This document shows positions 9,601 through 60,070 of a stretch of 64,000 bases of DNA, piece after piece. Source of the stretch: Astropecten irregularis. Its lineage: Eukaryota; Echinodermata; Asteroidea; Paxillosida; Astropectinidae. The notes beneath the pieces were generated by a model, which saw only the letters and a list, made by a program, of their open reading frames with translations, ran no database searches and was not told where the DNA came from. The translations under genes were made by a program, and so were the position numbers. Position 1 is the stretch's first letter; the number at the start of each line of letters is the position of its first letter. The stretch spans positions 3,286,001-3,350,000 of the forward strand of contig OZ020251.1 in the NCBI GenBank assembly GCA_963971285.1. The letters are read 5' to 3'.

Positions 9601-11136
9601 ACATGCTGGATTAGACAAAGTGTGAATGCTGTTCTGTTACCTTTACAAATTAATGCTGTACACGCCCTAGGTAGCAAGGTCTCATCAGGAATTTCATATG
9701 TGGTGCTTACCTAGGACAATGACTTCCAACGTAACTTGTCTTTGCCTCATGGTCACACGAGGTAACACTCTGCATGTATACTGCCCCTCATCCTCCTTTC
9801 TGACTTGCGAAATAATCAGACCGTAAGTGTCGGACAGCCTGTAACGTTCGCTTAACGTGAAGTTCCTGTCACCAATGGCAGTAGTGTACTTAGCAAGTTT
9901 CGAGCCATCTTCCGCAAACCAAGTAGCGAGACTGAGTGCTTCTCCGTGGTATGTGGGGCACGGTATGTGTTGGGTTTTATTCATCTGGACATAGACGTCG
10001 GGAGCGTAGAACAGCGATTCCTTGATGTCTTCTGAAACTGCAATGTGACAGATGGCCACATGATCATAATCATGAAAAGTATAATAGCAGGGTGTTTAAG
10101 ACTACGAAAAAGTATGTGAGTGATCCCCCATGTGCCCTTTCTCAGGCTGGCGCATTGCTAATGATATGCGTATATACAGGGTGTCCCAGTAAAAAAACGC
10201 AACACTGTGTCGGGAACCGTAATGTTACAATTAAACTGTTTATCACTTCAAGATTCGGATACGTGATACAACCATGTCTTGGCTATCACCATGTAGAATT
10301 TAAGGAAAATCAGGCTGGAATTGGCGAAACTATGACCAATTGAAAGAGTACTCTTTAAAAACAAATTTGCAGTATTTCATAATAAGTGGTCAATACACAC
10401 ATAATGTGTATTGAAAGAAAGATGAAAATCGGATTTTGAGGTTGGGTATATCAGTCTTAGTTTTTCCCTCAATTTCAGTCAAATTTTGCTAAATTTCTAC
10501 ATGGTGATAGCCAAAACATGGCTGCATCACATATCTGAATCTTGAAGTGGTAAACAGTTTTTAATATTCATATAGGCCTAATAGTTCTCGACACAAAGTG
10601 TTGCGTTTTTTAAGACACCCTGTACAGGGGTATGCGAGTGGTTTCATGGCTTCTGATTGAAAAGCGAACAGGGATAATTGACTATTAATGGATAAATGGA
10701 CGCCACCAACATGGGCTGGATAGCTCTGTCACAGCTCTGGAAGAGCGACGGTACGGTATTGCAGTGGCCGCTGGTCCGAATCCCACTCCAGTCAAATTTG
10801 CTCTGTTCACTTTCAATGGCTAAAAATCAAAGTGATAAAAGTATAATCAAAAGGTCCTCACTCATACTCATTTCATGCATGAATGGCTGAATAGAGGGAC
10901 GTACAAGTAGAGGAGTGGACCAGTCCTATACAAGTTTACAGATCAATGACCAAATTAATGACACAAAATCTGTTACCTTCTCTTTTTGATCGAGTCCTTT
11001 CCTTGGTAAGTTGTCTCGTGCTCCATAAAGGACGCGGATGATGTATGTTGGCCCGAGTGTAACTAAAGGGCAGAGCTTCACAGAAACACAAGATCACTAA
11101 CAGCAGCACTATCACAACGGCTCTCATTGCAGCCAT
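619..11136 (-). CDS. Gene A: two-Ig-domain single-pass receptor with long tyrosine-motif tail
   Basis: Eleven coding exons, all joined at phase 1: 11136-10977, 10037-9711, 9204-8863, 8092-8042, 6515-6318, 5203-5168, 4087-4043, 3353-3150, 2647-2453, 1677-1606, 650-619 (1,662 nt, about 553 aa). Exon 1 holds a signal peptide (MRAVVIVLLLVILCFC) and a furin-like RTRSKR site. Exon 2 is an Ig domain (C at HIPCP, W at ATWFAE, EDEGQYTC); exon 3 a second V-type Ig domain (IKCPV, IYWSA, RYWCHL). A short CESC stalk precedes a TM helix at about 306-329. The tail (330-553) has candidate phosphotyrosine sites PEYQSPP, AVYIKI and NPTY near the C terminus. If the donor at 1605 is skipped, exon 10 runs to a stop at 1508, giving about 575 aa ending after YADVIYSY. 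An acceptor just upstream of the ATG (near 11175) suggests a 5'-UTR intron. Role inferred: cell-surface recognition receptor signalling through tail tyrosines; ligand unknown. No orthologue name is justified. Confidence 0.82.
765..1090 (+). mobile_element. tRNA-headed SINE
   Basis: The head has a B-box (GGTTCGAATCC at about 828-838) and a weak A-box (TGCCTAGTTG). The body contains a CACCCAGGTAGAG-type core and a GGTTTCAGGAATGTAAAT segment typical of conserved metazoan SINE bodies. There is no intact cloverleaf, so it is not a tRNA gene. It lies in the last intron of gene A. Confidence 0.6.
1705..2440. repeat. Minisatellite, 106-110-bp unit, ~6.5 copies
   Basis: Higher-order unit made of two related ~53-bp halves (ATGGTATTACCATGGC and ATGGTAATACCATGGC starts). 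The unit recurs at 1795, 1901, 2007, 2117, 2227 and 2333. Each half carries a short palindrome around CCATGG. Open frames through it are artefacts. It sits in the gene A intron between 1677 and 2453, beginning only ~30 bp from the exon 10 acceptor. Confidence 0.85.
3911..3990. mobile_element. CpG-rich foldback MITE (half copy)
   Basis: Right half of the family seen complete at 6562-6680: alternating GCGC/GTGC core, then CTGTTGACTTGAAGACC and ending TCTCCAAAGTCTCCCATT. Intronic in gene A. Confidence 0.7.
4196..4433. mobile_element. GGGGCCAATTTCATAGAGC MITE, copy 1
   Basis: A 238-bp element with inverted ends GGGGCCAATTTCATAGAGC and CTCTACGAAATTGGCCCC. The interior contains ATTGAAAATTCGATTTGATA and GTGATACACAACACA. 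Intronic in gene A. Confidence 0.8.
4620..4852. mobile_element. GGGGCCAATTTCATAGAGC MITE, copy 2 (reverse)
   Basis: About 233 bp, opposite orientation to the copy 190 bp upstream, with the same interior and terminal blocks. Together the two form a large imperfect inverted repeat in the same intron. Confidence 0.75.
5352..5910. mobile_element. TTAA MITE fragments
   Basis: Two broken pieces of the ~360-bp TTAA family. The first starts at CTTAAAGGTAATATC (5352-5475). The second runs in reverse from ACAGAAATGTTCACAG (5570) to CCTTTAAAGGTAACC (5910). They share a GCTGGATTAGACAAA segment with the fragment at 9426-9665. Confidence 0.6.
6177..6303. mobile_element. Foldback element with perfect 27-bp arms
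   Basis: Arms 6177-6203 and 6277-6303 are exact reverse complements, starting GGTGCATTCGTTTAGC, separated by 73 bp. It lies in the gene A intron, ending 15 bases from the TM-exon boundary at 6318, so it could mask that splice donor in pre-mRNA. Confidence 0.8.
6562..6680. mobile_element. CpG-rich foldback MITE, complete copy
   Basis: Ends GGGAGACTTTGGAGAACCGG and its complement; core of alternating GCGCGCATGC and GTGCGCGTGCGC. Located in the intron upstream of the gene A TM exon. Confidence 0.8.
7238..7590. mobile_element. Nested inverted-repeat MITE
   Basis: Outer arms GCGCCACCATGAGT and ACTCATGGTGGCGC; inner arms GGCCTTTACGAAACCTGG and its near complement ending 7533. A relative with GTGCGCCACCTTGAGTTTG occurs at 44965. 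Confidence 0.7.
8167..8713. repeat. 42-bp minisatellite, 13 copies, open in frame
   Basis: Thirteen consecutive 42-bp units without indels. The plus-strand frame reads HVVLLRYGDTEHER per unit and the minus frame is also open. Because 42 is a multiple of 3, long ORFs are trivial here. It lies about 75 bp upstream (in minus transcription) of the gene A stalk exon at 8092-8042, so it is treated as intronic. Confidence 0.85.
9426..9665. mobile_element. TTAA MITE fragment
   Basis: Begins CTTTAAAGGTAATCACACTT and includes AAATACAGATTCATGGGCAG and the GTGCCCACTTTTTGAGAAAA block. The right part is replaced by a GCTGGATTAGACAAA segment shared with 5352-5910. In the intron between the two Ig exons of gene A. 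Confidence 0.65.
10118..10875 (+). mobile_element. tRNA-headed SINE split by a mariner-like MITE
   Basis: The left part (CCCCATGTGCCCTTTCTCAG) and right part (GGTTTCATGGCTTCTGA, then GGATAGCTCTGTCACAGCTC and GTCCGAATCCCACTCCAGTC) match the continuous copies at 50690 and 51300. The MITE at 10175-10624 interrupts it at a TA. Confidence 0.65.
10175..10624. mobile_element. Mariner-like MITE with TA ends, complete (450 bp)
   Basis: Ends TACAGGGTGTC and GACACCCTGTA, followed inward by ACGCAACAC and GTGTTGCGT. It contains mirrored CATGTAGAATTTAAG-type segments about the centre and no coding capacity. Other copies: 62454-62900 and 63677-63891. Confidence 0.8.
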
Positions 11137-18247: not shown

Positions 18248-21200
18248 TCATATTGTTAGTGAGACTGCTTCATGGTAACTGTAGTAAGTTGGAATCACTG
18301 TAGCTGTGTCCACCGTGTCCATATTTCTGACATATACATGATCAATCAGTGTACCTCTTTCTGTAGTTCCATCTGTAACACACTGTCTGTAACCACGATC
18401 TAACATTAACTTTTCCATCCGTGAACAGTGTTTCAGAATATCTTCATTAAAATCACCCATTACAATGCATCTATTAGTCACTCTGTGAAGTTCATTGAGC
18501 AGAATATCAATATTGGCAAGAAACTGATCCATTGAATATGAAGCTGGACGATAGATTACTACCACACAATATGACAAATGAGTGATTACTTGAAATGCTA
18601 TGTATTCTAGATTCTGAACTGGAAAAACTAGTCTGCTGAAAGATTGATTCTTCCTTCCAAATACAGCAACACCTCCATGACATTGTTCCTTCAACATTTG
18701 TGTCACATTACTTGTATCATCATATGAAGCACTTCTGTTCTGATAATAGCATTTGAAATCACATAATTCTACATGTATGTCAAGGTATTCTTCATTATCA
18801 ATCCACGTCTCAGTAAGACAAATAAAATCAGATTTCATCATGTCATTATTACACTTGAGATCCATTTGATGTTCCTTTAATCCTTGAATATTATGCATTG
18901 TAATTACAGTCCTGTTAGATTTATCTTCCTGTACATGTTCTTCAGCATCAATAAATTCTGGCATACTCTTCAAAGATTCTGAAACTGCTTTGTTACAGTA
19001 TATATATTTCTCATCAAATCCCTTAATCTGAAGTCCATTCTTTGATGTAACTCTACTCAGTGCAACATATGCCTGTCCAGCTGAAAATGTATGTTCAAGT
19101 GAAACAACTGCTCTTTCTGTTGACATTCCTTGTACTTTGTGAACTGTGCAAGCCCAGGCTAATTTCAGGGGAAACTGATGTCGGACACAATTCTTAGTCA
19201 CATTTTCTTCTTCCTTCTGAATTGGAACAGTGCTTTCCTTATTTGATGATTTGTATTTTCTTTTTAACTTACATCCAACATCTCTGTTATCAAACAATAC
19301 TTCAACTATCTTAGGCCAAGAATTATCAGGCAACATAACAATTCCACGTACAGTTCCAAATACTCCATTAACAAGACCATCTGATACATCAATGTTCTTA
19401 GTTAACATAACTCTTGCACCAACTCCTAACCACAGCAATTCAGGCAAATTTGTGTAGCTTGATTTCTTTGTAACTCTTATCTTGCCTTTGCGACTTCCAT
19501 TCTTTTGAAGATCTTTAGCACAAATAGATACACAATCAGTACACTTAGCAAAGAGTGTTTCCCTATTATATTCATCCACTTGCTTGTTACATGGGTATAT
19601 GTGTAATGCATCACTCCAATCATCAGGATATTCACAAGATTTCAATAATGTAACATCATCTTCAGGTAACTTTTCCTTCTTATGTTTGACTCTCAACCTA
19701 TTCAGTAGTTTTGCAAACTGTACATCATCCTTTTGTCGCATGATTTCATTAAGTTCCACTTTCTTGAAGTGATCATTCCATAGGTCTACTGGGAGTGCTC
19801 TCTGGTACAATGCTTTGCCTTTGACTGGAGGTAACTGATAAAAATCTCCAACAGCTAAAATACTTATATTGCCAAAAGGATTGTGATTACGTGCTTGTTT
19901 TATCTGCCGCAAACGTCCATGTATATAGCACAAAATCTTGTGATCAACCATCGATATCTCATCTATAATCAGAATTTGAAGGTCAGCTAATGTATTTCTC
20001 AGCGTATTCAATTTGTCTTCTCCAAGTGGTTGATAAGGTATTCTAGCATCAGTGGGAATAGAAAGAGCACTGTGAATTGTACTTCCATTGACATTAAATG
20101 CAGCAACTCCTGTAGGTGCAACTATCAACACAGACACATTATCAGGATTTTGTACCGTTCTAGTAAAGAGTCTTGTTGCCTCATAATGAACTGACTTAAT
20201 TAAGTGTGATTTTCCAGTTCCAGCTCCACCTGTCACAAACACATGAAATGGTTCAGGATTTTTGCCATTAATCTTTTGTAAGCACCAACTACGAATCTTA
20301 GTAAAAACCTGTCTCTGCTCTATATTCAATGATCTTAACAATCTATATGCTTCTTGCCTGGATACTTTTGCTGCATGTGGTTCAATATTGCATACATTGT
20401 GTACTGTTTTATCAGCTTGCAAATCAGGAATACCCAAAGCATTATCTTCTTCTTCTTCAATTAGGGGTTCACGTTCTGCTTCACATTCAAGTCTCTCTTG
20501 TTCAGTAGTAGGACAAATCAAAGACCATGCATCATCTTGAAGACCAAATTTCTGAACATACTGTGATGCTGCTTCTAGAGCGTCAGCATTTTCTTCATAT
20601 ACAGAGCGATTACTCTCAACAATGCACCTGACAGACTTCAATTCATCATTTATACTTACAGTACCATTCTTATAGAATTCTGCAAATGTTTCAAACTGAG
20701 GTGGTTTCAAATGTTTATCAATACGATATGGAAGAAACAGCTGCAATATACTGTGGTAGTATTTCTCAGGATATTTATTCTCTTGAAATCGAGGATATCT
20801 TATGACTGCAGGTTCAGTTTTACAACGCTTCTGTATGTGACCTAAACCATCTTTAAGTTCATATACTGGTGATTTAGTTTTTCTAGCATTATACTTGTAT
20901 ATAATCCTGTACTCTGAGCAAAAGGTAGCAAGGCACATATTGTTAAATGTATCTAGATCTGGTCTTGCTTTGTAGCGATCCACTCTATTAACCATAAATA
21001 TATCACTATCATCATCTTCATCTCTGTTCTGAATTACACTTAATGGCAAACTCATTCTGACAGGATTCTCACCTACAGGTATAAACTCCACTTTTCTTGA
21101 ACCTTCTTTCAACCTGAGACCACATACACGAAACACTGCTTCCTGAGCTGATACTTCACGATTATGCAGATACACACAACCAATTTCTTTCATGCTGTCC

Positions 21201-24200
21201 CTTGCACTTAAATTACCCTTCTCTGCCTCTCTTTGTGTATTTGCCAGCAACTGACCCATTTCACGTTCAGATTTAGACATATATGACACAACATATGCTC
21301 CACAGGCATAAGCATCACAGATATATTGAATATCCATATTAGCATTCCAACATCTTATCAAGTCAGGATTATATAGATTCACCCAGACATCTTGAGGTTC
21401 TCTTTTCATGACAATAGTTTGTTTGTGAGTCAATACATTGTGAGCTTTCTCAAAGTTCTTCTGTGTAATATTAAGCATTTTAAATAACTCAACTGTTGTC
21501 AAATGTTCATTATCCTCATTTTGTATGGCATCCCATACGGACTTGAGTAATTCTTTGGCTTCATTTTCCTTCTTCATATCACTATGGTTACTTGAACTAT
21601 CATCATCACCTTCATCAACATCATCTATATCCTCTGCATGACTATCAACATGGCTAACATTATCATCACTAACATCATCAGAATCAGAATCATTATCATG
21701 GTCAACATAACTGGTCTTTTCTTTTGGCTTAGTAATGAATGTTCTACTGGATGGTGGTCTTGGAAAATTGAATCTACAGTCAGTTCCCCTCTTTTTACAT
21801 GACTTTGAGTGTTTCCTGCTGTGTAGCTGCACATGAGTTAATATATCATTCAGCTCTAAATCCTCCTCTTCAGATGGCAATTTGCAACTGATATATGAAT
21901 CAATGAATTTAACAACATCTTCATCACTATCTATTCCCAATTTTGGAGCATTATCAATCCAGAACAAACAATGTGTATGTGGACTTCCTCTCTGCTGAAA
22001 TTCAACTCTATAGAAATAATCCTTCACTTTACCAATAGGCTGAGCTTTGGACATAATCACATCTTTCAAAAAAGAATGAAATCTCTTGTCAAACATTCTT
22101 GCTACAGTAACTGGATTACTCCGCAACAATTTACACTTATCATTCCAATCCAAATCATTTATGTCTCTAGAATCACCTTGCTGTCTCAATAATGTGTTTA
22201 TGACTTCAGGCCATCTCATATCAGCTGCAGAAAATGAGCAAAACCATGTTGGTATTCCAAGTTGTCTAATCATAGCCATAACATCTTTCTGTGCTGCTTG
22301 CCAGTATGGGGGTGTACCTCTAATTGGCTTCAAGAACCTGTAACCACTATCTGACTGTAGAATATCTTTCAATTGATCTCTATCCTTGATTACACTAGCA
22401 TTTATACGCTCAGCACAATGTACACTGCCTGAACTCTGACGCATTGCAATTGATACTTTGGACATGACTTGTTGGATTTCAGATACATACTGAGAATAAA
22501 AGATATACTGTGTGCTATTTGCAAATCTATTATCTGCATTCATTAATCTGTTATGGAAGTATCTAGTCATGCTTAATTTTACATCACGATTATCACTAAA
22601 TATTGGTGTGCCTGAAGGAAATAATGCTGGAAAACATTTAGCTTCATTGGCTTCATCCATCAATACTCTTACTGGGCTATTTGTTTCACAAGGAGCAACA
22701 CACATGATATCATCAAAATCCTGATCCAAGGCATCTTGAGCAATATTGACTGGTTGCAAACATGTATCATGAGCAATACCTCTCAACCGTTCTTCATCAG
22801 TGTCTACATCTGTATCTTCATCACTATCACTTGAATGATCAGATTCATGCTCAGCTTGGTTTTCATCTTCTAAGGGATCCTCCCAATCACAATTGATATC
22901 AATTCCATTATAACATACATTATGCTCCTTCAGATAACGTATTGCATTTTCAACATGTTCCCTGTTCACATACTGATACTCATAATAGCCTTTGAATGAC
23001 AATTTTCTCTTCAACTTTACCTTGATTAGCTGATTATCATTTCTATTTCGAGGCAACGCTGTAACAGTTTCAGAAATATTTGATGGTACGCATACAACTG
23101 GACCATGTACTGAGTTCTGACCACCCCTTGGCAAGGAAATGAGTTTCATAAATGCTACATTTATTGCTATCAGATGCTGCTCCAATGTATTCAAGCAACT
23201 TAATTCATCTGGAATGGTTTCCAATTTGAGATTGTTTACACATGCTTCAGCTGGCATCTTACTTTCACGCAATTTCCTATGACATGTATAGCAAATCCAC
23301 AAACATGATCGACTTGATGCACACATTTTACACTTCTTACTACAATGCCTGTTGTCTCCACATGAATGCAAATATTTGTCACATATCCAATCAATATTTG
23401 TGTACTTCTTTAGATTACACTTCACAACCTGCTTCCGAAACAGAAGTTTGTGACAAACTGCACATATATATTCAGGTCCTGATGCTACAACCTGCCTCCA
23501 GTTTCTTATTACATTACTCATTATTTGTGCATTTGCTCTCTTTCTTTTGGCTCGTTCAGCATTCCTTTGTTTCATGTTATGGCGATACACTTGACTCCTC
23601 CTGTACTTTGCTTTCTGAAAACGTATCAATTTGAACCTGTAACTTGTATTCAATGAATACTTCTTCTTAATTGATTTAATAAGAGCCATTTTGTATGATA
23701 AATTACTGTGGTATCTTTTCTTAGCACTCCTGATCTTTCTTTCCCTGTACACTTTATTTTCATGATACTTAGATTTTGCACTGTGTACTTTGCCTTGCCT
23801 ATATTCCTCATTTTCATGATACTTAGATTTTGCATTTTGTACTTTTTCTTGCCTATATTCTTCATTTTCATGATACTTAGCTTTTGCATTCTGTACTTTT
23901 TCTTGTCTATATTCTTCATTTTCATGATACTTCGATTTTTCATTGTGTACTTTCCTTTGCCTATATGCTGCATCCTCGTATTTTTTCTTAGCATGATTAA
24001 TCTTTTTATTTCTATACTCAACATCATCAAGGTATTTCTTCCTCATTGCACCAGTAATCTGAATCACATTTTGCTTGTATCTGCATTTAGCATGGTCAAT
24101 AGTATTATGTCTGTATTCCACACTACTATGATACTTCTCTTTCTTTGTCCAATGTTTCTTCTCCTTTTTATTCTGTTCATCTTTCTTCCTCTGATATCTT

Positions 24201-27187
24201 TCTCTTTGCCGTTCCCTTTCAGCCTTTTGTCTCATTTTTACATTTCCATGCTTATGTTTCTTTGAACATTTACCTTTGTGTGTTTTGGATGATGTATTTT
24301 TATCACGGTCATCATTGCGATGTACAGTCTGCTTTCTGACATCATGTACACTTGTCACTAAATCATAATGTATTTGGTTCTTGTGGTACAAATAAATTCC
24401 GGATTTCAAATGAGTATAAACATCTGCACAAGCAAACCTACTTGAAAATACATACCACTTATTAATATCACTATACGTGTAAATACCAACATCTAACAAG
24501 TGCGCTGTCACAATGATCTCTACCTCAGTAGCCCAGGTTCCACTATACCACAATCTTGCATTTGTGATGTACTCTTGCACAGAACAGTAACCTTCACGTA
24601 TAAAGCGTCTAAACATATCAGCATTCTCCAACAGATGATTAACAATTGCCTGTCTGAATTTCATGTGATTACCTTCAGTCCCTGACACTGCATAACTAAT
24701 GGCTCTGAAAAAGCAGTTACCATCACCTCTGATTGTCTTGACACAATTTGGCCTTCCCAATGTTTCACAATTAATCACAGTTTCCTGAGCATTTACATGA
24801 ATATTACTCGCACCACATTTTTCACACAGCCTAATCTTATCGTCATAACTTAACTGCACAAATTTCAAATTGATTGGTTGATCAGCTTGTATGATTTCTA
24901 CATCAGCTTCATTGTCTTCATTTCTCTGTGTATTTGTAGAGCAGGGTTCATTGCTAGCACTTACACTCTCAACCTGATCACAGATACTGACATCATCATC
25001 TATCCAAATAGTAATACCTGTTATTTCAAACTGTTCATTATTACTAACTTTCATTGACTTTGCAAGTTCCAGACAATACCTATACACACCTTGCCATGAT
25101 GATACACACTTGAGCAAACTCTTTCCATTGCTGTCCATATGTCCATGCTGATTTCTAGAATGTGAATCAAAAATATAATACATTCCATCTTCAACAATTA
25201 CTGAAAATGTGTTTCCATGAAAACAGATAAAACATGCATGATATTTCTGAACTGTCTGCTCAATTGCTTGATTAATTGGAATCATATTGAACTCATTCAA
25301 ATCTGCTTCTTCCTCTGCAAAAGTTCCAGACACAGATTCATCAATCTTCATATGCAAATGTTTACCGAATGCATCAATTTCATCTGGCAACTCACTGATT
25401 AACAAATAGTCATTCATCATTGTAGAACTACATGACAAGCAACTGTACAATTCATTCCCAGAATTCAACACAAAATCCATTTCTTTACAAGTCCAACTAT
25501 TCAATGGCTTAATTTTGCTGTAGAGGATTGCACAGAGACTCATACAAACACACTGTCTGCCAGCTTGTTCAGCAAATCTTAAATCACCTTGATGAAAAGT
25601 ACCTTGAATACACTTCATATCACCTGTATGTTCTACCTTCTGAAATTTGGTTGAAGTTCCTTTAGATTCTGTGTATCTTGCATTCTGCTCATTGGATTTA
25701 CGTGTCTCCTTAGAAACAGTCCTTCGTGAGACTCTTGGTTTTTTACTATTCAAACATTCACCAGAATTGTCAACATTGTCTTCAGCTTTTCGCTTTGGCT
25801 TCAATATCTCATTGCTCTTATTCTCATGATCAACCAAACCTTCTTCCTTCCTGCTTCTAAGCCCATATCTAGCTTTAGGTTTTGCTTTTGAGGCTGCATC
25901 ATTCTTACTTACACCACTATGCTGTCCACATTTTTTTGCATCATTTTTTTCATGATTTTCCTTTCTACTGTCACAGCTGCTTTCAGCGTTGCAAGATTTC
26001 TTACTTCTCAAAGAATAACCTCCACTCTGCTGAACTTGATGTATGCAGCCATTTCCATTTGCATTTACATATCTGTGATCAGGGTTAGCTATTTGTACGT
26101 GCTTTATCTCACCTCCATTCACATTCACTGTTGCAAATGCACCGTTGACTTCAGTGTGAGCTGTACTCTCAAAGCATGACTTGCTACATGAAGCTACTTG
26201 AACATCATCCAAGGTGACTGCAGATTCCAGTGTTTCATAACTGTTTTCAGCTGTAGGAATACCAAGATCATATAACACACAGTCTGCATAACTACATCTT
26301 CCACACTTCGGACATAACCATACTGCTTTACTCGTTACAATAGACAGCTTCTTTGACAAGCCCATACAATCTACGTGATACAAGACACTGCAATTATCAC
26401 ATTCTAAAACACGTTCTACTGCACTGGTTACTTTATCACATAGCCAACACTGTCTTTCCTCAACAATCTGACATGTATTAGACATCTTCATTCCATGATT
26501 TTGAGATACTTTTTTTTGAAATTTCTGTTTCTTGCCCACATGTCTGTCGCTACAATTTAATCTTCTCTGCTTCTCATTGCATTTGTCCCTTTTGACCATT
26601 CTATTGATGACATGACTCAACGTTCTTCGAGTGTGACATTGAATGTTTCTCTGTAATCTTTCATGTGCTCTTAATTCATCTTGACTCATGCGAACTTCTA
26701 TCACCTTACCATTCCTTGATCTATGATATGCCTTCTTGCGTTCACTTCTTCTGATTTTCTTGTGGTTTGGTTTGGATGCTTTCCTTTCCTTCTGAACATA
26801 TTCAACAACAGAATCCAGTACCTGATTTCTACTACAACATGTCTGTCCATTCCTTCTCATTGCTTTCATTACCTCTTGGTTATGTGCTCTCTTCTGAGTC
26901 ATCTTCTGTATTCTGTACTTCTTCAGCAAGGCAACTGTCTTTCCAACTTCATGATCTCTACTCTTTCCTGCTACAGGATGATCAACATGTCTGAGCTGCA
27001 GTTCAGAAAAATGCACATCTCTTCTACACATGGATTTACATACCTCAGTCCTCAGCTTTGAGTTTCCAAACTTGAACATACTTTCCACTCTCTGCTTACC
27101 ACTGTCTGTATATTGCAACATGTACTTCATTCTGTGTATTTTAGATTTCGTGAGCTTAAGTTTCGTGAATATAGCTTTCGTGTACAT
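18248..27187 (-). CDS. Helentron (Helitron) Rep/helicase/endonuclease polyprotein, intact
   Basis: One uninterrupted frame; I start at the Met at 27187 (2,979 aa). The frame is open to 27595, but the added ~136 residues look non-coding. Domains in order: basic N terminus; PHD finger ~243-295 (CWLCDK, CDNC, YHVDC, CPKC); a cysteine-peptidase-like block ~540-720 (RQCVCMSLCA, then YYIFDSHSRNQHG), recalling C76/USP-like folds; OTU protease ~815-942 (RGDGNCFFRA, IHYDLV); eight or nine basic 18-residue repeats; a Cys-rich finger ~1239-1380; Helitron N region ~1540; HUH motif RGSPHTHCLFWI ~1730; Y2 motif YVVSYMSK ~1959; Pif1-like helicase with GGAGTGKSH ~2319, LIIDEIS ~2412, GDFYQLPP and AYVALSRV ~2706; endonuclease ~2763-2979 (MHNIQG, TETWID, GDFNED, LIDHVYV). 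The last usual Asp-His pair reads SYHEAV, so the Asp is replaced. Rolling-circle transposition is the known family role. Lack of stops implies a recent or active copy. Confidence 0.93.
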   Translation of the reverse strand: MYTKAIFTKLKLTKSKIHRMKYMLQYTDSGKQRVESMFKFGNSKLRTEVCKSMCRRDVHFSELQLRHVDHPVAGKSRDHEVGKTVALLKKYRIQKMTQKRAHNQEVMKAMRRNGQTCCSRNQVLDSVVEYVQKERKASKPNHKKIRRSERKKAYHRSRNGKVIEVRMSQDELRAHERLQRNIQCHTRRTLSHVINRMVKRDKCNEKQRRLNCSDRHVGKKQKFQKKVSQNHGMKMSNTCQIVEERQCWLCDKVTSAVERVLECDNCSVLYHVDCMGLSKKLSIVTSKAVWLCPKCGRCSYADCVLYDLGIPTAENSYETLESAVTLDDVQVASCSKSCFESTAHTEVNGAFATVNVNGGEIKHVQIANPDHRYVNANGNGCIHQVQQSGGYSLRSKKSCNAESSCDSRKENHEKNDAKKCGQHSGVSKNDAASKAKPKARYGLRSRKEEGLVDHENKSNEILKPKRKAEDNVDNSGECLNSKKPRVSRRTVSKETRKSNEQNARYTESKGTSTKFQKVEHTGDMKCIQGTFHQGDLRFAEQAGRQCVCMSLCAILYSKIKPLNSWTCKEMDFVLNSGNELYSCLSCSSTMMNDYLLISELPDEIDAFGKHLHMKIDESVSGTFAEEEADLNEFNMIPINQAIEQTVQKYHACFICFHGNTFSVIVEDGMYYIFDSHSRNQHGHMDSNGKSLLKCVSSWQGVYRYCLELAKSMKVSNNEQFEITGITIWIDDDVSICDQVESVSASNEPCSTNTQRNEDNEADVEIIQADQPINLKFVQLSYDDKIRLCEKCGASNIHVNAQETVINCETLGRPNCVKTIRGDGNCFFRAISYAVSGTEGNHMKFRQAIVNHLLENADMFRRFIREGYCSVQEYITNARLWYSGTWATEVEIIVTAHLLDVGIYTYSDINKWYVFSSRFACADVYTHLKSGIYLYHKNQIHYDLVTSVHDVRKQTVHRNDDRDKNTSSKTHKGKCSKKHKHGNVKMRQKAERERQRERYQRKKDEQNKKEKKHWTKKEKYHSSVEYRHNTIDHAKCRYKQNVIQITGAMRKKYLDDVEYRNKKINHAKKKYEDAAYRQRKVHNEKSKYHENEEYRQEKVQNAKAKYHENEEYRQEKVQNAKSKYHENEEYRQGKVHSAKSKYHENKVYRERKIRSAKKRYHSNLSYKMALIKSIKKKYSLNTSYRFKLIRFQKAKYRRSQVYRHNMKQRNAERAKRKRANAQIMSNVIRNWRQVVASGPEYICAVCHKLLFRKQVVKCNLKKYTNIDWICDKYLHSCGDNRHCSKKCKMCASSRSCLWICYTCHRKLRESKMPAEACVNNLKLETIPDELSCLNTLEQHLIAINVAFMKLISLPRGGQNSVHGPVVCVPSNISETVTALPRNRNDNQLIKVKLKRKLSFKGYYEYQYVNREHVENAIRYLKEHNVCYNGIDINCDWEDPLEDENQAEHESDHSSDSDEDTDVDTDEERLRGIAHDTCLQPVNIAQDALDQDFDDIMCVAPCETNSPVRVLMDEANEAKCFPALFPSGTPIFSDNRDVKLSMTRYFHNRLMNADNRFANSTQYIFYSQYVSEIQQVMSKVSIAMRQSSGSVHCAERINASVIKDRDQLKDILQSDSGYRFLKPIRGTPPYWQAAQKDVMAMIRQLGIPTWFCSFSAADMRWPEVINTLLRQQGDSRDINDLDWNDKCKLLRSNPVTVARMFDKRFHSFLKDVIMSKAQPIGKVKDYFYRVEFQQRGSPHTHCLFWIDNAPKLGIDSDEDVVKFIDSYISCKLPSEEEDLELNDILTHVQLHSRKHSKSCKKRGTDCRFNFPRPPSSRTFITKPKEKTSYVDHDNDSDSDDVSDDNVSHVDSHAEDIDDVDEGDDDSSSNHSDMKKENEAKELLKSVWDAIQNEDNEHLTTVELFKMLNITQKNFEKAHNVLTHKQTIVMKREPQDVWVNLYNPDLIRCWNANMDIQYICDAYACGAYVVSYMSKSEREMGQLLANTQREAEKGNLSARDSMKEIGCVYLHNREVSAQEAVFRVCGLRLKEGSRKVEFIPVGENPVRMSLPLSVIQNRDEDDDSDIFMVNRVDRYKARPDLDTFNNMCLATFCSEYRIIYKYNARKTKSPVYELKDGLGHIQKRCKTEPAVIRYPRFQENKYPEKYYHSILQLFLPYRIDKHLKPPQFETFAEFYKNGTVSINDELKSVRCIVESNRSVYEENADALEAASQYVQKFGLQDDAWSLICPTTEQERLECEAEREPLIEEEEDNALGIPDLQADKTVHNVCNIEPHAAKVSRQEAYRLLRSLNIEQRQVFTKIRSWCLQKINGKNPEPFHVFVTGGAGTGKSHLIKSVHYEATRLFTRTVQNPDNVSVLIVAPTGVAAFNVNGSTIHSALSIPTDARIPYQPLGEDKLNTLRNTLADLQILIIDEISMVDHKILCYIHGRLRQIKQARNHNPFGNISILAVGDFYQLPPVKGKALYQRALPVDLWNDHFKKVELNEIMRQKDDVQFAKLLNRLRVKHKKEKLPEDDVTLLKSCEYPDDWSDALHIYPCNKQVDEYNRETLFAKCTDCVSICAKDLQKNGSRKGKIRVTKKSSYTNLPELLWLGVGARVMLTKNIDVSDGLVNGVFGTVRGIVMLPDNSWPKIVEVLFDNRDVGCKLKRKYKSSNKESTVPIQKEEENVTKNCVRHQFPLKLAWACTVHKVQGMSTERAVVSLEHTFSAGQAYVALSRVTSKNGLQIKGFDEKYIYCNKAVSESLKSMPEFIDAEEHVQEDKSNRTVITMHNIQGLKEHQMDLKCNNDMMKSDFICLTETWIDNEEYLDIHVELCDFKCYYQNRSASYDDTSNVTQMLKEQCHGGVAVFGRKNQSFSRLVFPVQNLEYIAFQVITHLSYCVVVIYRPASYSMDQFLANIDILLNELHRVTNRCIVMGDFNEDILKHCSRMEKLMLDRGYRQCVTDGTTERGTLIDHVYVRNMDTVDTATVIPTYYSYHEAVSLTI

Positions 27188-27595
27188 AGTGCATCTTTTT
27201 TCTTCAGAACTTATCCAGTTGCAAGGCAAGAGGGCCCCAGCACCAGAACAAAGTGAATTTGGTCTCACTCGTCCCAGTGCATACACACATTTGTCGTGTG
27301 CCAACTGGTTTGCGCACTGCTCGGCAGTCACAAGCAGACGACTTCCCTGAGGAGGTGCCAACCTCAGGGCATTTGGATGAAGGGAAGATGTGAACTTGCT
27401 GGAATATGAAATAGACCAAACACAGGACATAGTAGAAGAATGAAATGGTATAATGATGGGAGGGAAATGAAATGATGACTGCAAGACAGACAAACACAAA
27501 GAAGTGCACTCAAGGATACGGTAGGGCATCGAAGTTACAATGGAGCAATCTAAAAACAAACAAGAAGGGAAAAAAACACTCTTCAAAAACAACAT

Positions 27596-32164: not shown

Positions 32165-32400
32165 ATGTCAGCCGTAATTACTCTCTAAATGCAGAAGAGT
32201 GAAAAATACCACTCGGTTAAAATTGAGTTGTCCCCCAGTGGCTCTTAAAAAAGAGTGGTAGTTGTTAGTTAATTCTATTGGAGTGGTTTTCACTCTGGAC
32301 CAGAGTGACAAATCACTCAAATTAAACGATATGTGCAAACATCACTCTCAAAGAGTGGAAGACAACTCGAAAAAATATCGAGTCAGTTGTCACTCATAAT
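32165..32400. repeat. Degenerate inverted repeats rich in CACTCTT/AAGAGTG
   Basis: Multiple facing copies of AGAGTG and CACTCT (GAGTGGTTTTCACTCTGGAC, AAAGAGTGGAAG) suggest a folded repeat next to the GPCR pseudogene. No clear borders. Confidence 0.4.
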
Positions 32401-32690
32401 GGATCTTTAAAGAGTGCTTGGTCACACTCGCAGACTTTTACGAAACCATATGATTGTATGAATTCAGTTCCAAAGCGTATATTACTGCATTTATGCAGGA
32501 ATTTGTTGTCAAACAGGAGAACAACGGAGAGCATGAAATGCCACACGTTGAAATCTAGAGTAAGACCAAGACTGAATATGACGAATATGACTTGATTTGG
32601 AGTCCAGCAGATCATGAAGGTGGTGAATACAATGCGGAGGGGTGTTGCGTCTTGCCCGGAGTAGAAACTCTGCTATACATTCTGCCTCGC
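32394..32690 (-). pseudogene. Inverted, truncated GPCR pseudogene (TM6-TM7 part)
   Basis: On the minus strand this matches the intact receptor at 33835-34803 from just before TM6 (LLRARRN) through TM6 (MICWTPNQVIF identical) and TM7. About 8 bases are missing upstream of TM6, breaking the frame. The TM7 NPxxY motif is lost and no 5' part is found. It is probably the remnant of an inverted tandem duplication. No poly-A is seen, so retroposition is not favoured. Confidence 0.8.
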
Positions 32691-32878
32691 CTGTGCTCGG
32701 TTCGTGACCCGGGTAGCAGTTGATGCTCCATGCTGGTGCGGATATTATGCGAAGAGCATCACATGCTACGAAGAACCAGGGAGCGTAGATATTTTTATTT
32801 TTTTTTTGGGGGGGGGGCGTACACCCGAGGATTTAATTTTATGTATAATTATGTGGACAAAATGTATAATTATGAACT

Positions 32879-33174: not shown

Positions 33175-33834
33175 GTTTGTTTCAGGGGCCATCCTCCCCT
33201 CCCTCTCCGTACATACGTACTTTATGGACGGCCTGTAATCAACTTTGACGTGTGTTCACTGACGATACAAAGTTTCTTGTTTTAAATTTCCTCTGGGGTC
33301 AAAGTCCGAGGTTTAAGATGGATGTAGCAAGTTACATGCTCCTCCATTAATTGTCCTATACGAGAGAGGCCTTTTGTGTCTTACTGAAGTGATGCCACTT
33401 AAGCTACGTTGGTTTTCCAAGCTCAGACAGCGAGCAAAGAGAAAAGGAACTTCCTGCTTTAATGGATTACCGGTGAATAATTCCATCATAGACAAAGCGT
33501 GGCTAGCATCAAACGTCTTGTTAAAGCACGAGAATTAGAAGCAGAAGAGATTAATTCTCAGCACTGGCTTTGATGCAGAATACGTAGATCTTTCCTGGTT
33601 AATTGTATATCTTTGTTACTTTGAGGACTGGCATCACAGAATAGAAGAAAATGGCATGAAAAGCAGACATTGATAAAGATACGCCGCTTTCTTTGGATTT
33701 TCTTTGGATACCATGTATAATAAATATACATTCATATGGTTGCTACTATTATTTGGTTATTCTAAAGAAAACCAGCAACTGCTAAAGTGCATGGCGATGA
33801 TATTTTATATAAATATGGAGTGGACTGTTGACTA

Positions 33835-34803
33835 ATGAAACGTTTAAGTCACAGGTTCAGCATGGAGCAGATTCTTTCACTGCGCGTGTACAAGATCGTT
33901 GTGGGGATTTTAGGCATTTTAGGCAACGGTCTGGTGTGCCTTGTCATCGGTAAAGTGTCTGCTCTACACACTCGTACCAATGCCTTCATCTTCCATCAAG
34001 CTTTGGTTGACTTTCTAGGATCCATGTTTATCTTATTAGACACCGAGATCCCACTGCCTGACATCATACCTGACAATGCTGGAGGAGCAATACTCTGTCT
34101 CCTCTGGGTCCATCCAAATGTCATGTTTATGGTGTTCTCCGTATCTACGTATAACCTTCTTGCGATGACTGCAGAGCGGTATTTCGCCATCGTTCATCCA
34201 TTTGCGTACCAGGTAGCCTTCGCGCATCGTCCTGTGCTGAAAACCGGTATGGTTATCGCGTCATGCTGGACTTTGGGTGTCATTGCACTTCTTCCGGTCT
34301 TTGGTATGTTTGAATTTCGAAACGGGGACTGTCTTTCTATTCCAGGATCAAACGCCCTTGGGATCCTGGTAATAGTCATCTTGTACCTGGCACCCGTTGC
34401 TTTCATGCTGTTCGCGTACATTCGCACCAGCTTGGAGCTGAAGAGAGGAGCCGTCAGGGTGGGTCCCACCTCCGGTCAAGCAGCAGGTATGGCAGAGTCA
34501 CTGCTCCGGGCAAGACGCAACACCTTCAAGACCCTCCTGATTGTATTCACCACCTTCATGATCTGCTGGACTCCAAATCAAGTCATATTCTTCATGTTCA
34601 ACCTCGGTTATCAACTCGATTTCAGCGCGTGGTACTACCCACTCTCTGTGGGTATGGTAGCCACAAATTCCTGCATCAACCCAATCATCTACGCTTTCAA
34701 GTACAATCAGTTTCGCAAAGGTCTACGAGGCATTTTCTGTCCGAAAAGCCGCCATGATGTCAGCTTGGAAATCGAATCAGTTACACAATCGGTTCAACCC
34801 TAA
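33835..34803 (+). CDS. Intronless class A (rhodopsin-type) orphan GPCR
   Basis: A 322-aa single-exon receptor. TM1 carries GNGLVCLVIG; TM2 LVDF; TM3 ends in AERYFAIVHPF (ERY instead of DRY); TM6 has FMICWTPNQV (CWTP for CWxP); TM7 has NSCINPIIYAFKYNQFRKG (NPxxY followed by helix 8). Cysteines before TM3 (AILCLL) and in loop 2 (NGDCLS) could form the usual disulfide. The third intracellular loop is short, with LLRARRNTFKTLL before TM6, and the tail is about 25 aa. A second Met 27 nt downstream (MEQIL) is an alternative start. Intronless rhodopsin-type receptors form large lineage-specific expansions in echinoderms; ligand cannot be read from sequence. It is transcribed opposite to the receptor genes on either side, with no sign of co-regulation. 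An inverted degenerate copy lies 1.2 kb upstream. Confidence 0.93.
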   Translation: MKRLSHRFSMEQILSLRVYKIVVGILGILGNGLVCLVIGKVSALHTRTNAFIFHQALVDFLGSMFILLDTEIPLPDIIPDNAGGAILCLLWVHPNVMFMVFSVSTYNLLAMTAERYFAIVHPFAYQVAFAHRPVLKTGMVIASCWTLGVIALLPVFGMFEFRNGDCLSIPGSNALGILVIVILYLAPVAFMLFAYIRTSLELKRGAVRVGPTSGQAAGMAESLLRARRNTFKTLLIVFTTFMICWTPNQVIFFMFNLGYQLDFSAWYYPLSVGMVATNSCINPIIYAFKYNQFRKGLRGIFCPKSRHDVSLEIESVTQSVQP

Positions 34804-40413: not shown

Positions 40414-53282
<12,869 letters not shown>

Positions 53283-55904: not shown

Positions 55905-56045
55905 TCGCAAAACGAGCAAAGATAATTGACTAAAAATTGGGACACCACCGACGTAGGGCTGGATGGCTCAGTTGGAAGAGCGCCTGTACTGGTTTTCAGG
56001 AGGTCGCCGGTTCGAATCCCGCTCTAGTCAATTTTTCTTTGCTCA
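55905..56045 (+). mobile_element. tRNA-headed SINE with best-preserved tRNA-like fold
   Basis: From about 55964: GGCTGGATGGCTCAGTTGG to GTTCGAATCCCGCTCTAGTC. The acceptor and D stems can pair (with wobbles), but the anticodon stem is only 4 bp with a 10-nt loop, and the T stem has a mismatch. Called SINE rather than tRNA. Downstream of gene C. Confidence 0.7.
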
Positions 56046-56353: not shown

Positions 56354-59300
56354 TCACACCTTCACATAGCTGTTTTCGACTTCACATGGAAACATTTCGT
56401 AAATCATCACCGCATTTGTTTGGTACACGGCAAGTTTGTGTTCCCCGAAGAAGCACAAGCCTTGCACATCAACCAGGTCAGAGGGGAACGTCTGTACTAT
56501 CCGCGATTTCTCCACGTCATACTGATATATCTGACAGCCGGCTGCGTAGCTATACACGACGTACAACAGTCCTCCGTGCACCAATATCTGCTTGATCGTA
56601 CCTTTCTCGGTAGGTTTGACCTCAATCTTCTTAGACGTTTTGGCCTCCTCGATGCCGCCCTTCTTCAAGGTGTACTTCTTTACGGTGTCTATACCGTTGC
56701 TGATGAAGACGTGTTTTGAGCCGAAAGCAGCCAGATTGGCGACAGCTATTTCGGTCTTGTAGGTCTTGATGGTTGTTCTGGTAGCAGGGATGACAGACAA
56801 GGTCTTTTTATTGCGTTCACCGAGAAAAATAACTCCTACATCATCAGCGGTGAGCTCGGTGAAGCTGAGTTGCTCAGCGGGCTCGGAGGTGGTCGGGAGG
56901 ATTGATTCTGTTCGGCCCGTCTGCAAATCCAGAAATACCAGACCGCTGTTCTTGAGGCGGACGAGGATCCGGTTGCTGTTTGGGTAGCTGGCAACGCAGA
57001 CCACGTCCCAGCCTTCTATTTCCGACGAGCAAGCGAAGGTTGACGAGAAGCAGTGGATCCCTTTACTTGTGGCCACCGCGAGGCCGCCACTTGCCGTGGG
57101 TAACACGGAAATCACCCCTTCCAGATCCGTGGACAGCTCCCCTCTGTAACGCCACAAGCTCGTTTCACCTGGAAGTGTAGGATGAACCGACGAAATATAA
57201 CTCAATGTGCTTCCCCAAAGGTTCATGAATTGAGGGAGAAAGGGTAAGTCCATATTTTTTGTGAAAAATTGTGTAAAGTTTGCAAGAGGTTTATTACCTT
57301 CCACGTCTGAACCTGTTGTATGTTGTTTCGTAGGCTTCAAAAGACATATCTTCTCATCGTGTTGTTCTGCGAATTAATAATAAAAGAATTATAATGAGTC
57401 TACTCTCCATTACTCTCTCCCTTGCATTGCCTTGCCTCGCCTCGCCTTGCGCTTGCCTTGTCTTGCCTTGCCTTGCCTTGCCTTGCCTTGCCTTGCCTTG
57501 CCTTGCCTTGCCTCGCCTCGCCTCGCCTCGCCTTGCCCTGCCCTACCTGCCCTGCCCTGCCCTGCCCTGCCCTGCCCTCGCCTCGCCTCGCCTCGCCTGT
57601 CGTATTTCGATCCAAGCAGGATCGTTATCGCAGACTAAATTAATGACAAGAGGACAAGAACTCCAATCACGAATAAAACAAGAACGTTTCTGTCAATTCC
57701 TCAGCTAAATTTCCAGCTAACTTACTTCTGCTCATCTCAACCTCCTCCACAGAGGGTCTGCCTCGACCTCTGGAGAACCTGATTCTTGATATCAGGAACA
57801 CGATGCCAATAAGGCACACTAGTGATATGATGGCGAGCACGATGGTGAAACCAAGATTCAATTGGTTAACTCGTACATTGCCGTTATCCGAGGTAGGCCC
57901 GTCTGTAGCAGCGTCAATGTTACCACCTTGTATAAAATAAAACGAGGTACAAGTTAGTTAAAGGTAGTATCATACTTTGTTTTTTGTCAAAGAAATACAG
58001 ATTCATGGGCAAAAGTATCAAGGAAAATACAGTAAAAGTCATCTGTGACAATTTCAGCCCAATACGGTGCCCACTTTTTGAGAAAACGGTGAAAACAGCC
58101 ACAGTATTTCTTAAGTCTTTTCTCTTTTATTTTTGATCTTTTAAAAGATCAAAAAGATTTTCGGTCGTTGGTTTATTAATTTCTGGATAAATACACCATT
58201 TCAGGCGGAAATATTTTAAAACGGTAGGTTTCTACCAGCATCATCTTCATACCCTGAAAGTTATATGTAAATCTGTGAACATTTCTGTTTTGGTCTCTTA
58301 CCAAAGTATGATACAACCTTTAAGCATCCATAGAATCATAGTATCTCACATGAAAATGTTACAATTGCCCTCGTGGATAATGCTCTTGCGGATAAGATCG
58401 TCACTTACCTTCAACGGTGATGATTTTGCTAGATGACTGGTTGACGATAGCTTCGCCTAATCCAAGACATTCAAAGGAGCAGCTGGTATCCGCAGCTAGG
58501 TCCAACTCGCCCAGATACATCTCACTGCTAACGTTGTACCATCCCGATACCTCGTCAAAAGACGATCGCTGATTGGACACATACCACTGCTGTGACTGGC
58601 TGCTATTGTCCGAGCAGCCAATGATCGACCACGTCAGATCGGGTTTCGGGACGACATTGGTGACCGAACACTCCACAAACAGGCGTCTAGAAGCTTGGGC
58701 ATTACAGTCTCCGGCCTCGGAGGCAGTACACGGAGATAGTACCAGATCGGTTGGACTCACTGGAATTAAAACAAAACCCATGTAAACGTCCCTATTCTGA
58801 TAACCAGGGGCCAATTTCATAGAGCTGCTTAACACAAAGAATTTACTTAGCACAACAATGGCTTGCCCAATAAAACAAACCACCGTTGAAAATTCGATTT
58901 GATATTCATGGTCAGCTAACAACATCTAAAGAACAATTGCAAGGGATACACAACACGTGGACATTATTTTGGTTGTTAATCCTGTTTTTATTGAGACAGT
59001 CATGCTTAGCAATGTTTTGTGCTAAGCAGTTCTATGAAATTGGCCTCTGTACGTTAAGCAGAGAGTACATCGCCAACATTTTCGGTAACAATCTCGGTAA
59101 CATGATGTCTGGGCTTTTTTCCAAACCTCGGCTCCGGCTCAGGCTCCGGCTCAGGCTCCGGCTCAGGCTCCGGCTTCGTCTTTGCAGTCCATATGCTGAA
59201 AATATACGTTGTGATTTTTCATTGAAGCTAGAGTTCTGTTTTCTTTTTCAAACCAGAGAATCTACTTCCGAACCGCAGCCAAAAGCCCCTATTTTGATAC

Positions 59301-60070
59301 CCGTTATTTTAGAATGGATTCATGAAATGGAGCAGGAGTCGGAGCTGGAGCCGGAGCCGAAGCCTGAGACGGAGCCGAGCTTTGAGAAATGACCCACCAT
59401 GTACCTTGTGGCTGAAAGTGTTGTCAGTGTACACAGAGCAACGTCTCGGTAACATGTTAGCCAAAGCTAAGTAACAAAAAATCAATGTTTAGCCTATATA
59501 TAACATTGAAAAGAAAATGAAAACTTGAGAGTATTTATAACATTTTTTAGGGTTTTTTTAGTTGACCATTTAGCTTGGGAGCCTATGGGAAATGATTTAC
59601 TCTTATACTTTCCCCCAACCATCTCCCTCCCTCCATTTTGTACGTGTTTGCTTAACGTTTCCAAAACAAAGATGAGAGACTGTCTTACCTACGACTACCT
59701 TCACATTGGAATCGTCCTGCTCTCCAGTGTTCTGCCGAACAAAACGGCACCAGTATATTCCACTGTCGGCTGGCGTAGCTGCCTTAATAGCTAGGTGGAA
59801 GCTAGCGGTCAACATGTACCTATCACTGATGGTAGAGTTAGTGTCTGAAGGCTGGCTGCTGTACTTCAGTAAGAGAGATTCCAGAGCTTCTTGCAGCGTA
59901 TCTCCTTTATACCAGTACATGAGAGCGATTCTGTCGTCTGGTTTCAGACCAGCACATGGAATGTCGGTCACTGGGCTACCAGACTGCGTGTAGACAGGCT
60001 GTACCTCTGCGATGATTCGCGTAGCATAGCTTGCCATCGCATACACTAGGTAGATGAGTGTGATCCGCAT
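56354..60070 (-). CDS. Gene C: Ig receptor with predicted cytosolic beta-propeller
   Basis: Five exons: 60070-59689, 58759-58409, 57926-57726, 57366-57298, 57168-56354 (1,818 nt, 605 aa). Intron 4 (57297-57169) is 129 nt, in frame and stop-free, so retention would give about 648 aa. Exon 1 carries the signal peptide (MRITLIYLVYAMASYA) and a V-type Ig domain (TDIPCAG, MYWYKG, DSGIYWCRF). Exon 2 is a second Ig-like domain with extra cysteines. Exon 3 holds a Thr/Ser stalk and a TM helix at about 269-292 followed by a basic stop-transfer (RGRGRPS). The last exon (about 335-605) has six ~40-residue hydrophobic-strand repeats, e.g. GVISVLPTASGGLAVATSKG, GWDVVCVASYPNSNRILVRL and VDVQGLCFFGEHKLAVYQ, reading as a six-bladed NHL/YVTN-like propeller. 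C-terminal YVKV could bind a PDZ domain. The propeller call is from repeat pattern only; no catalytic module is visible. Probable scaffold-type signalling tail. Confidence 0.85.
57405..57600. repeat. Pentanucleotide microsatellite (CCTTG/CCTCG/CCCTG)n
   Basis: About 36 units in blocks of CCTTG, then CCTCG, then CCCTG, then CCTCG. It fills most of the short intron between the gene C TM exon and exon 4 (57367-57725). All frames are open, giving spurious Leu/Pro/Cys or Arg/Gly ORFs. In transcript orientation it is purine-rich. Confidence 0.9.
57958..58323. mobile_element. TTAA MITE, best complete copy (366 bp)
   Basis: TTAAAGGTAGTATCATAC to GTATGATACAACCTTTAA. Central hairpin GATCTTTTAAAAGATC. 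Flanking TTAA on each side. In the gene C intron upstream of the TM exon. Confidence 0.88.
58807..59046. mobile_element. GGGGCCAATTTCATAGAGC MITE
   Basis: Complete copy of about 240 bp in gene C intron 1, ending TTCTATGAAATTGGCCTC, 48 bases upstream (in transcript order) of the Ig2 exon. Confidence 0.8.
59053..59470. mobile_element. GGTAACATGTTG MITE split by a foldback element
   Basis: CGCCAACATTTTCGGTAAC at the left and GAAAGTGTTGTCAGTGTACA at the right match 53939-54190. The middle is replaced by 59111-59395. Confidence 0.65.
59111..59395. mobile_element. Foldback element with CTCCGG/GGAGCC hexamer arms
   Basis: GGGCTTTTTTCCAAACCTCG then (GGCTCAGGCTCC)n; the right end has GGAGCCGAGCTTTGAGAAAT then GACCC. 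The arms are repeats of complementary hexamers, so length can vary by slippage. Gene C intron 1. Confidence 0.6.

Follow-up and report, generated by a model that had tools for sequence, protein, structure and literature searches.

To our knowledge, animal immunoglobulin (Ig) receptors signal by few inner modules, namely kinases, phosphatases, TIR or death domains, and tyrosine motifs. Cytosolic propellers of the WD40 type are found in other membrane proteins, such as Sec12/PREB and SCAP, which function in endoplasmic reticulum traffic or sterol sensing and have no Ig ectodomain. Here, we describe gene C of the starfish Astropecten irregularis, which is predicted to encode an Ig receptor with a divergent beta-propeller as its cytosolic tail. 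It lies in a window of 64,000 nucleotides (the whole stretch of DNA analyzed, C15:3286001–3350000, where C15 denotes the contig). Each part of this protein belongs to a known kind; no description of an Ig receptor that combines them was found in the titles and abstract openings of the open-licence PMC articles listed, which is not proof that the combination is absent from print. If the prediction is true, Ig recognition would here be linked to the cytosol in a new manner, through a propeller on the inner side.

Gene C is located on the minus strand (window positions 60070–56354) and consists of five exons that join in one frame of 1818 nucleotides, including the stop codon, giving a protein of 605 residues. 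When the minus strand is read and spliced, all introns have GT-AG borders and are in phase 1. Exon 1 (59689–60070), assigned by splice borders and Pfam, contains the ATG, a signal-like N-terminus (residues 1 to ~21) and a V-set Ig domain. Exon 2 (58409–58759, phase 1-1) encodes a second Ig-like domain (residues 128–245), as judged from its borders and Cys/Trp pattern. A stalk, the transmembrane helix and a basic juxtamembrane stretch are located on exon 3 (57726–57926; borders and hydropathy), and exon 4 (57298–57366; borders and alignment) is a juxtamembrane exon with an invariant DEKxCLL motif. Exon 5 (56354–57168) contains the 271-residue cytosolic tail (residues 335–605) and the stop codon; profile searches and a low-confidence model predict it to be a divergent beta-propeller. 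Gene C was first proposed as such a receptor from its letters and open reading frames (hereafter, the sequence-only reading), with junctions from 57726 to 57366 and from 57298 to 57168, exactly those found on splicing. The intron between the transmembrane and juxtamembrane exons contains a run of short GGCAA/GGCGA-type units (window ~57420–57610). Just behind the gene, on the plus strand (window 55957–56030), is an element that resembles a tRNA but has an incomplete anticodon, and that is possibly derived from a short interspersed nuclear element.

To find relatives, the tail (residues 335–605) was scored against ~5.8 billion proteins, with candidate lengths set by the whole protein. Only two of the 2878 candidates matched at E up to 10, and both are full-length starfish proteins: LOC119740996 of Patiria miniata (635 residues, tail E = 2.7e-68) and LOC110974978 of Acanthaster planci (637 residues, tail E = 1.1e-65), which are 48% and 45% identical to gene C from end to end, respectively. 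These proteins, annotated as uncharacterized or Ig-like domain-containing, share the full-length architecture, have tails 14 residues longer than that of gene C, and are presumed orthologues, the kind of counterpart in other echinoderms that the sequence-only reading had proposed to look for. A reciprocal search with the Patiria tail returned only Patiria itself and Acanthaster among 1475 candidates. A profile of the three tails alone matched none of 6846 candidates in the protein database at E up to 10; candidate lengths were held to 0.55–1.75 of the query (~150–500 residues), so that full-length receptors were not among them. Distant relatives of the tail may be missed, because the protein searches need shared five-residue words. 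In a scan of prokaryote genome contigs, 49 stretches fit a pattern and none was confirmed.

The gene C model was made by eye and from one genome, and the database models of the Patiria and Acanthaster proteins are perhaps computed predictions themselves. It could be an artefact that joins the Ig and transmembrane exons of one gene to the propeller exon of another. However, the 635- and 637-residue proteins of two other genera are colinear with gene C, a paralogue (gene D, below) has the same phase-1 join, and exon 5 offers no usable ATG. Its first Met occurs only at residue 589 of 605, which makes independent translation of the exon from an ATG improbable. A split into two genes is very unlikely given the colinear proteins and the lack of an earlier Met, and the two-gene or chance-splice reading was rejected on these three grounds.

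The genome of A. irregularis (475.7 Mb, 168 contigs) was searched with the same tail. At E up to 0.001, two places were obtained from 15 candidates: gene C and C15:3244216–3245013 (plus strand, E = 3.8e-9). The single stop in the latter match closes the tail exon and is the natural end of the reading frame, and the reverse search with this tail again gave only the two tails, from two candidates scored. The corresponding gene D (C15:3239904–3245004, plus strand) is 97 kb from gene C and has the same design, with exons for a V-set domain (31.2 bits vs. the Pfam cut-off of 26), a second and a third Ig-like domain, a transmembrane segment, and a single tail exon. All four exons with measured borders (V-set, second Ig-like, transmembrane and tail) are in phase 1. 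Pfam gives no match for the second and third Ig-like exons at E up to 10; the third resembles the second Ig-like domain of gene C (28.9% over 76 residues, E = 1.8e-5). The C and D tails are 24% identical (BLASTP score of 63.5 bits, compared to 26.2 for the best of 1000 shuffles). A genome search with the V domain (E up to 0.001) gave four places from nine candidates, corresponding to C, D, an exon of gene A (below), and a site ~10 Mb off on the same contig. The presence of this architecture in three starfish and in a diverged paralogue indicates that it is old and kept, rather than an accident. A stretch of the intron before the D tail (C15:3243393–3243776) matches nine BLASTN pieces between C15:3246000 and 3286000 at 77–85% identity and is probably a dispersed repeat.

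The fold of the tail was assessed by profile and structure comparisons. In a PDB profile search, all 52 matches were propellers (WDR5/wds structures in 42 cases; best E = 0.006), while the reversed-sequence control gave two matches, neither of them a propeller. Pfam matches the gene C tail to the WD40-type PF25171 (21.9 bits, far under the cut-off of 80) and the D tail to three sub-threshold families, all propellers, of which the VPS8 propeller is best. Thus, two tails that have diverged to the extent described above each have a propeller family as their best Pfam match. A structural model of the tail, although of low confidence, also retrieves propellers in structure comparison, including Hsv2/WIPI3, Atg18 and WDR91.

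A number of results weigh against this assignment. The tail model has a mean predicted local distance difference test score (pLDDT) of 48.7 and a predicted template modelling score (pTM) of 0.51, and a model of full-length Patiria protein scores lower (34.4 and 0.27). The 50 Foldseek matches listed have query TM-scores of only 0.23–0.42 and root-mean-square deviations of 11.8 to 21.4. A single-sequence PDB search gave three chains, none a propeller. In another PDB profile search, polyubiquitin accounts for 9 of the 60 matches listed, including the two best, which is probably a chance match of a short LxTGKT stretch, recurring along the chain. Over the three starfish tails, Pfam reports four families, two of which are domains of unknown function; no Pfam family is above its cut-off for these tails, that of gene C included, or for the D tail, and NCBIfam gives no family for the three. 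When the profile is compared with itself, no internal repeat emerges (the best alternative alignment has E = 0.32). Autocorrelation has peaks near lags 42–45, beside others at 9–12 and 52–56, but they are not significant for either hydropathy (p = 0.32) or strand propensity (p = 0.09). The six repeats of ~40 residues described in the sequence-only reading are therefore not borne out by either measure. The NHL/YVTN class it proposed has no specific support either, as weak matches are scattered over WD40, Kelch, NHL, SMP-30 and PQQ propellers. NHL as a specific class was rejected, with no NHL match reported by Pfam at E up to 10 and only a weak match to the Thin NHL structure. WDR5 and Prp19 structures among WD40 proteins are weak matches; Kelch is not reported by Pfam for the tail, with KLHL2 and SAKe weak in the PDB profile search. 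No entry titled NHL or Kelch is among the 50 fold-comparison matches listed, which excludes nothing.

Low model confidence, the lack of a Pfam family above cut-off or of a significant repeat, and the lead of polyubiquitin in one search would also suit an all-beta domain of some other, non-propeller fold. Such a domain is less compatible with a forward search in which every match is a propeller and a reversed control in which none is, or with the agreement between the C and D tails, and we regard it as distinctly unlikely. Structure prediction for residues 335–605 gave no confident non-propeller fold and no confident propeller. On balance, the tail very probably folds as a beta-propeller. The proposal of an Ig receptor whose cytosolic tail resembles a propeller is upheld by the orthologues, the paralogue, the controlled profile matches and the low-confidence fold matches, with the fold itself well supported but not proven. 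No curated family matches the tail above its cut-off, so annotation shows only an "Ig-like protein", and precomputed Pfam results for the Patiria and Acanthaster counterparts show only the V-set domain; receptors of this kind may have been overlooked in other invertebrates.

The V-set domain of gene C (residues 37–127, window 59962–59690; Pfam E = 6.4e-10) is above the cut-off of 26 in all three starfish, with 39.6 bits in gene C and 33.5 and 34.1 bits in the orthologues. The Receptor_2B4 profile also barely passes in gene C (21.7 vs. 21). The second Ig domain has no Pfam match above cut-off in any of the three species, with a weak C2-set_2 match in gene C (E = 0.14) and a sub-threshold Ig_3 match in Patiria. 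Its Cys and Trp residues are invariant and one sequon is common to all three proteins; it is a putative Ig domain by this pattern and its position. Thus, the layout given in the sequence-only reading holds for the signal-like N-terminus, V-set domain, transmembrane helix and 271-residue last exon, and less firmly for the second Ig domain.

The transmembrane helix (~residues 268–290, window 57858–57790) has a mean hydropathy of 3.16 over residues 272–290, shares 21 of 26 residues with each orthologue, and is followed in gene C by a basic inner flank (SRIRFSRGRGR). Ectodomain sequons at alignment columns 83, 211 and 249 are common to the three species. With its hydrophobic N-terminus, one transmembrane helix, basic inner flank and outer sequons, gene C is predicted to be a type I single-pass receptor, its N-terminus and helix being judged by hydropathy. 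The gene C tail has no sequon, while those of Patiria and Acanthaster have three and one, respectively, which counts against a cytosolic location. Several known inner modules were not detected: the kinase family that would mark a receptor tyrosine kinase is absent from the Pfam results of gene C (E up to 10); no TIR or death domain was found in its inner part; and the immunoreceptor tyrosine-based inhibitory motif pattern [SIVLT]xYxx[IVL] has no match in any of the three starfish sequences.

Between Patiria and Acanthaster, 232 of 271 residues are identical in the tail, compared to 69 of 123 in the signal plus V part and 76 of 117 in the second Ig domain, compatible with a conserved inner and a fast-evolving outer face. 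The comparisons with gene C tell against this: its tail (46–48% identical to the two orthologues) is not better kept than the Ig parts (39–50%), with Patiria identities of 130/271 (tail), 59/123 (V part) and 59/117 (second Ig domain). Since the difference between tail and Ig parts is absent here, the tail also evolved fast between A. irregularis and the other two.

The juxtamembrane part is only 37% identical to either orthologue, yet D-E-K-x-C-L-L within it is invariant. This motif contains ExxxLL (E316–L321, window 57338–57355, minus strand), the only ExxxL[LI] common to the three aligned proteins, which we take to be a candidate AP-2 dileucine signal. At the C-terminus, the alignment shows YVKV in gene C (window 56357–56368, minus strand) and YVLV in the orthologues, preceded by a linker that is not conserved; YVxV is a candidate PDZ or SH2 ligand. 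The former motif suggests endocytosis and the latter suggests PDZ/SH2 docking. As reservations, both motifs are short, and gene D ends in RSSSS, so that the terminal YVxV is not a family feature.

We consider gene C most probably a ligand-binding or adhesion Ig receptor with a non-enzymatic propeller docking tail, a putative function to which we attach moderate confidence. In this model, the V-set and second Ig-like domains, by their type, would bind a ligand or a partner cell, and the beta-propeller, on a ~40-residue linker, would act as a cytosolic docking platform. Ligand-driven clustering of the receptor could then cluster the propellers and recruit a cytosolic effector; such recruitment without enzymatic activity, as suggested in the sequence-only reading, is plausible. 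The invariant ExxxLL may load the receptor into AP-2 endocytosis for regulated uptake, and YVxV may anchor it on a PDZ scaffold (or bind SH2 if phosphorylated). That docking and endocytosis operate jointly is a more tentative proposal. The same ExxxLL, the VPS8 propeller as best Pfam match of the paralogue tail, and the presence of Hsv2/WIPI3, Atg18 and WDR91 among the structural matches could instead point to a mainly endocytic or sorting receptor, whose Ig domains capture cargo and whose dileucine signal and membrane-traffic-type propeller, used in the manner of VPS8, WDR91 or a PROPPIN, route it through endosomes with no signalling. These matches, however, either fall below threshold or come from a model of low confidence, and unrelated propellers occur among them; ExxxLL is common in signalling receptors too. 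This role is possible, but on the unlikely side.

Gene C has other receptor genes nearby. Gene B (window 43148–49739, minus strand), identified by Pfam and sequence reading, has two Ig-like exons, one just over the Pfam cut-off (21.8 vs. 21), a transmembrane exon, and tyrosine-kinase-type exons (39 bits vs. 23.1). Two further copies of the kinase exons, the only exons looked at there, are located at C15:3250179–3254 kb and 3269611–3274 kb. Gene A (window 8861–9996, minus strand; Pfam) has a V-set exon (29.7 bits vs. 26) and a second Ig-like exon that resembles that of gene D (27.6%). In the 234.5 kb covered, neither a propeller tail for gene A nor, apart from a decayed D remnant, a third propeller tail was detected. 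This short remnant, at C15:3263845 between two kinase-gene copies, duplicates the final 60 bases of that tail (95%) and ~200 bases downstream (85.5%). D, the three kinase genes, A and C all fall within ~106 kb. The locus thus groups receptors that differ in their inner modules, and it bears at least one trace of duplication and decay.

Three kinase genes (only B being seen with Ig and transmembrane exons) and two propeller-tailed Ig genes in such proximity raise the idea that gene C is a non-kinase subunit partnering the clustered receptor kinases (gene B, perhaps two more), with the propeller as substrate or scaffold. The argument is one of linkage alone, and the Ig and transmembrane exons of B and C have no significant similarity; we consider this partnership quite unlikely. 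A simple tail swap between B and C is not supported, because these exons are not detectably related.

The window contains other features as well. A stop-free frame of 3115 codons (18251–27595, minus strand) with Helitron_like_N, PIF1 helicase, OTU, PHD and endonuclease domains represents a Helitron-like transposon. An apparently intronless frame for a rhodopsin-type G-protein-coupled receptor (33832–34800, plus strand; 7tm_1, E = 1.3e-33) is accompanied by minus-strand frames at 32397–32832 that contain several of its peptides and look like a broken inverted copy.

A more specific proposal is a small class of two-faced immune receptors, particular to the starfish lineage and encoded in clusters with receptor-kinase genes, in which fast-evolving Ig domains would face outside and the inner propeller would itself recognize host or microbe peptides, signalling by docking and not by an enzyme or tyrosine motif. 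This proposal is speculative, and we judge it unlikely. Comparison with known systems shows several partial likenesses to gene C. VCBPs combine V domains with a chitin-binding domain and are secreted, without a transmembrane helix or propeller. VCBP3 of amphioxus (PDB 2fbo) is the second-best PDB match of the whole-protein profile, covering the V domain and beyond (E = 2.8e-7); in contrast, gene C has a transmembrane helix, and Pfam reports no chitin-binding family for it at E up to 10. TRIM-NHL proteins are cytosolic RING E3 proteins. Thin NHL (PDB 6d69), a weak profile match (0.003), has a C-terminal propeller as in gene C, but TRIM-NHL proteins lack the Ig domains and the transmembrane helix, and the NHL family is not reported for the gene C tail. 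Bacterial hybrid two-component sensors carry their propeller on the outer side and signal through an enzyme. One such sensor (PDB 4a2l), a membrane sensor built with propellers, matches the gene C tail weakly; PDB titles of the matched entries name a periplasmic or extracellular domain, whereas the propeller of gene C is predicted to be cytosolic. Finally, sea cucumber NLRC4 (PMC8699970), as presented in the title and opening of the abstract, is another echinoderm protein that joins Ig to an unusual partner, in that case NACHT and in gene C a putative propeller.
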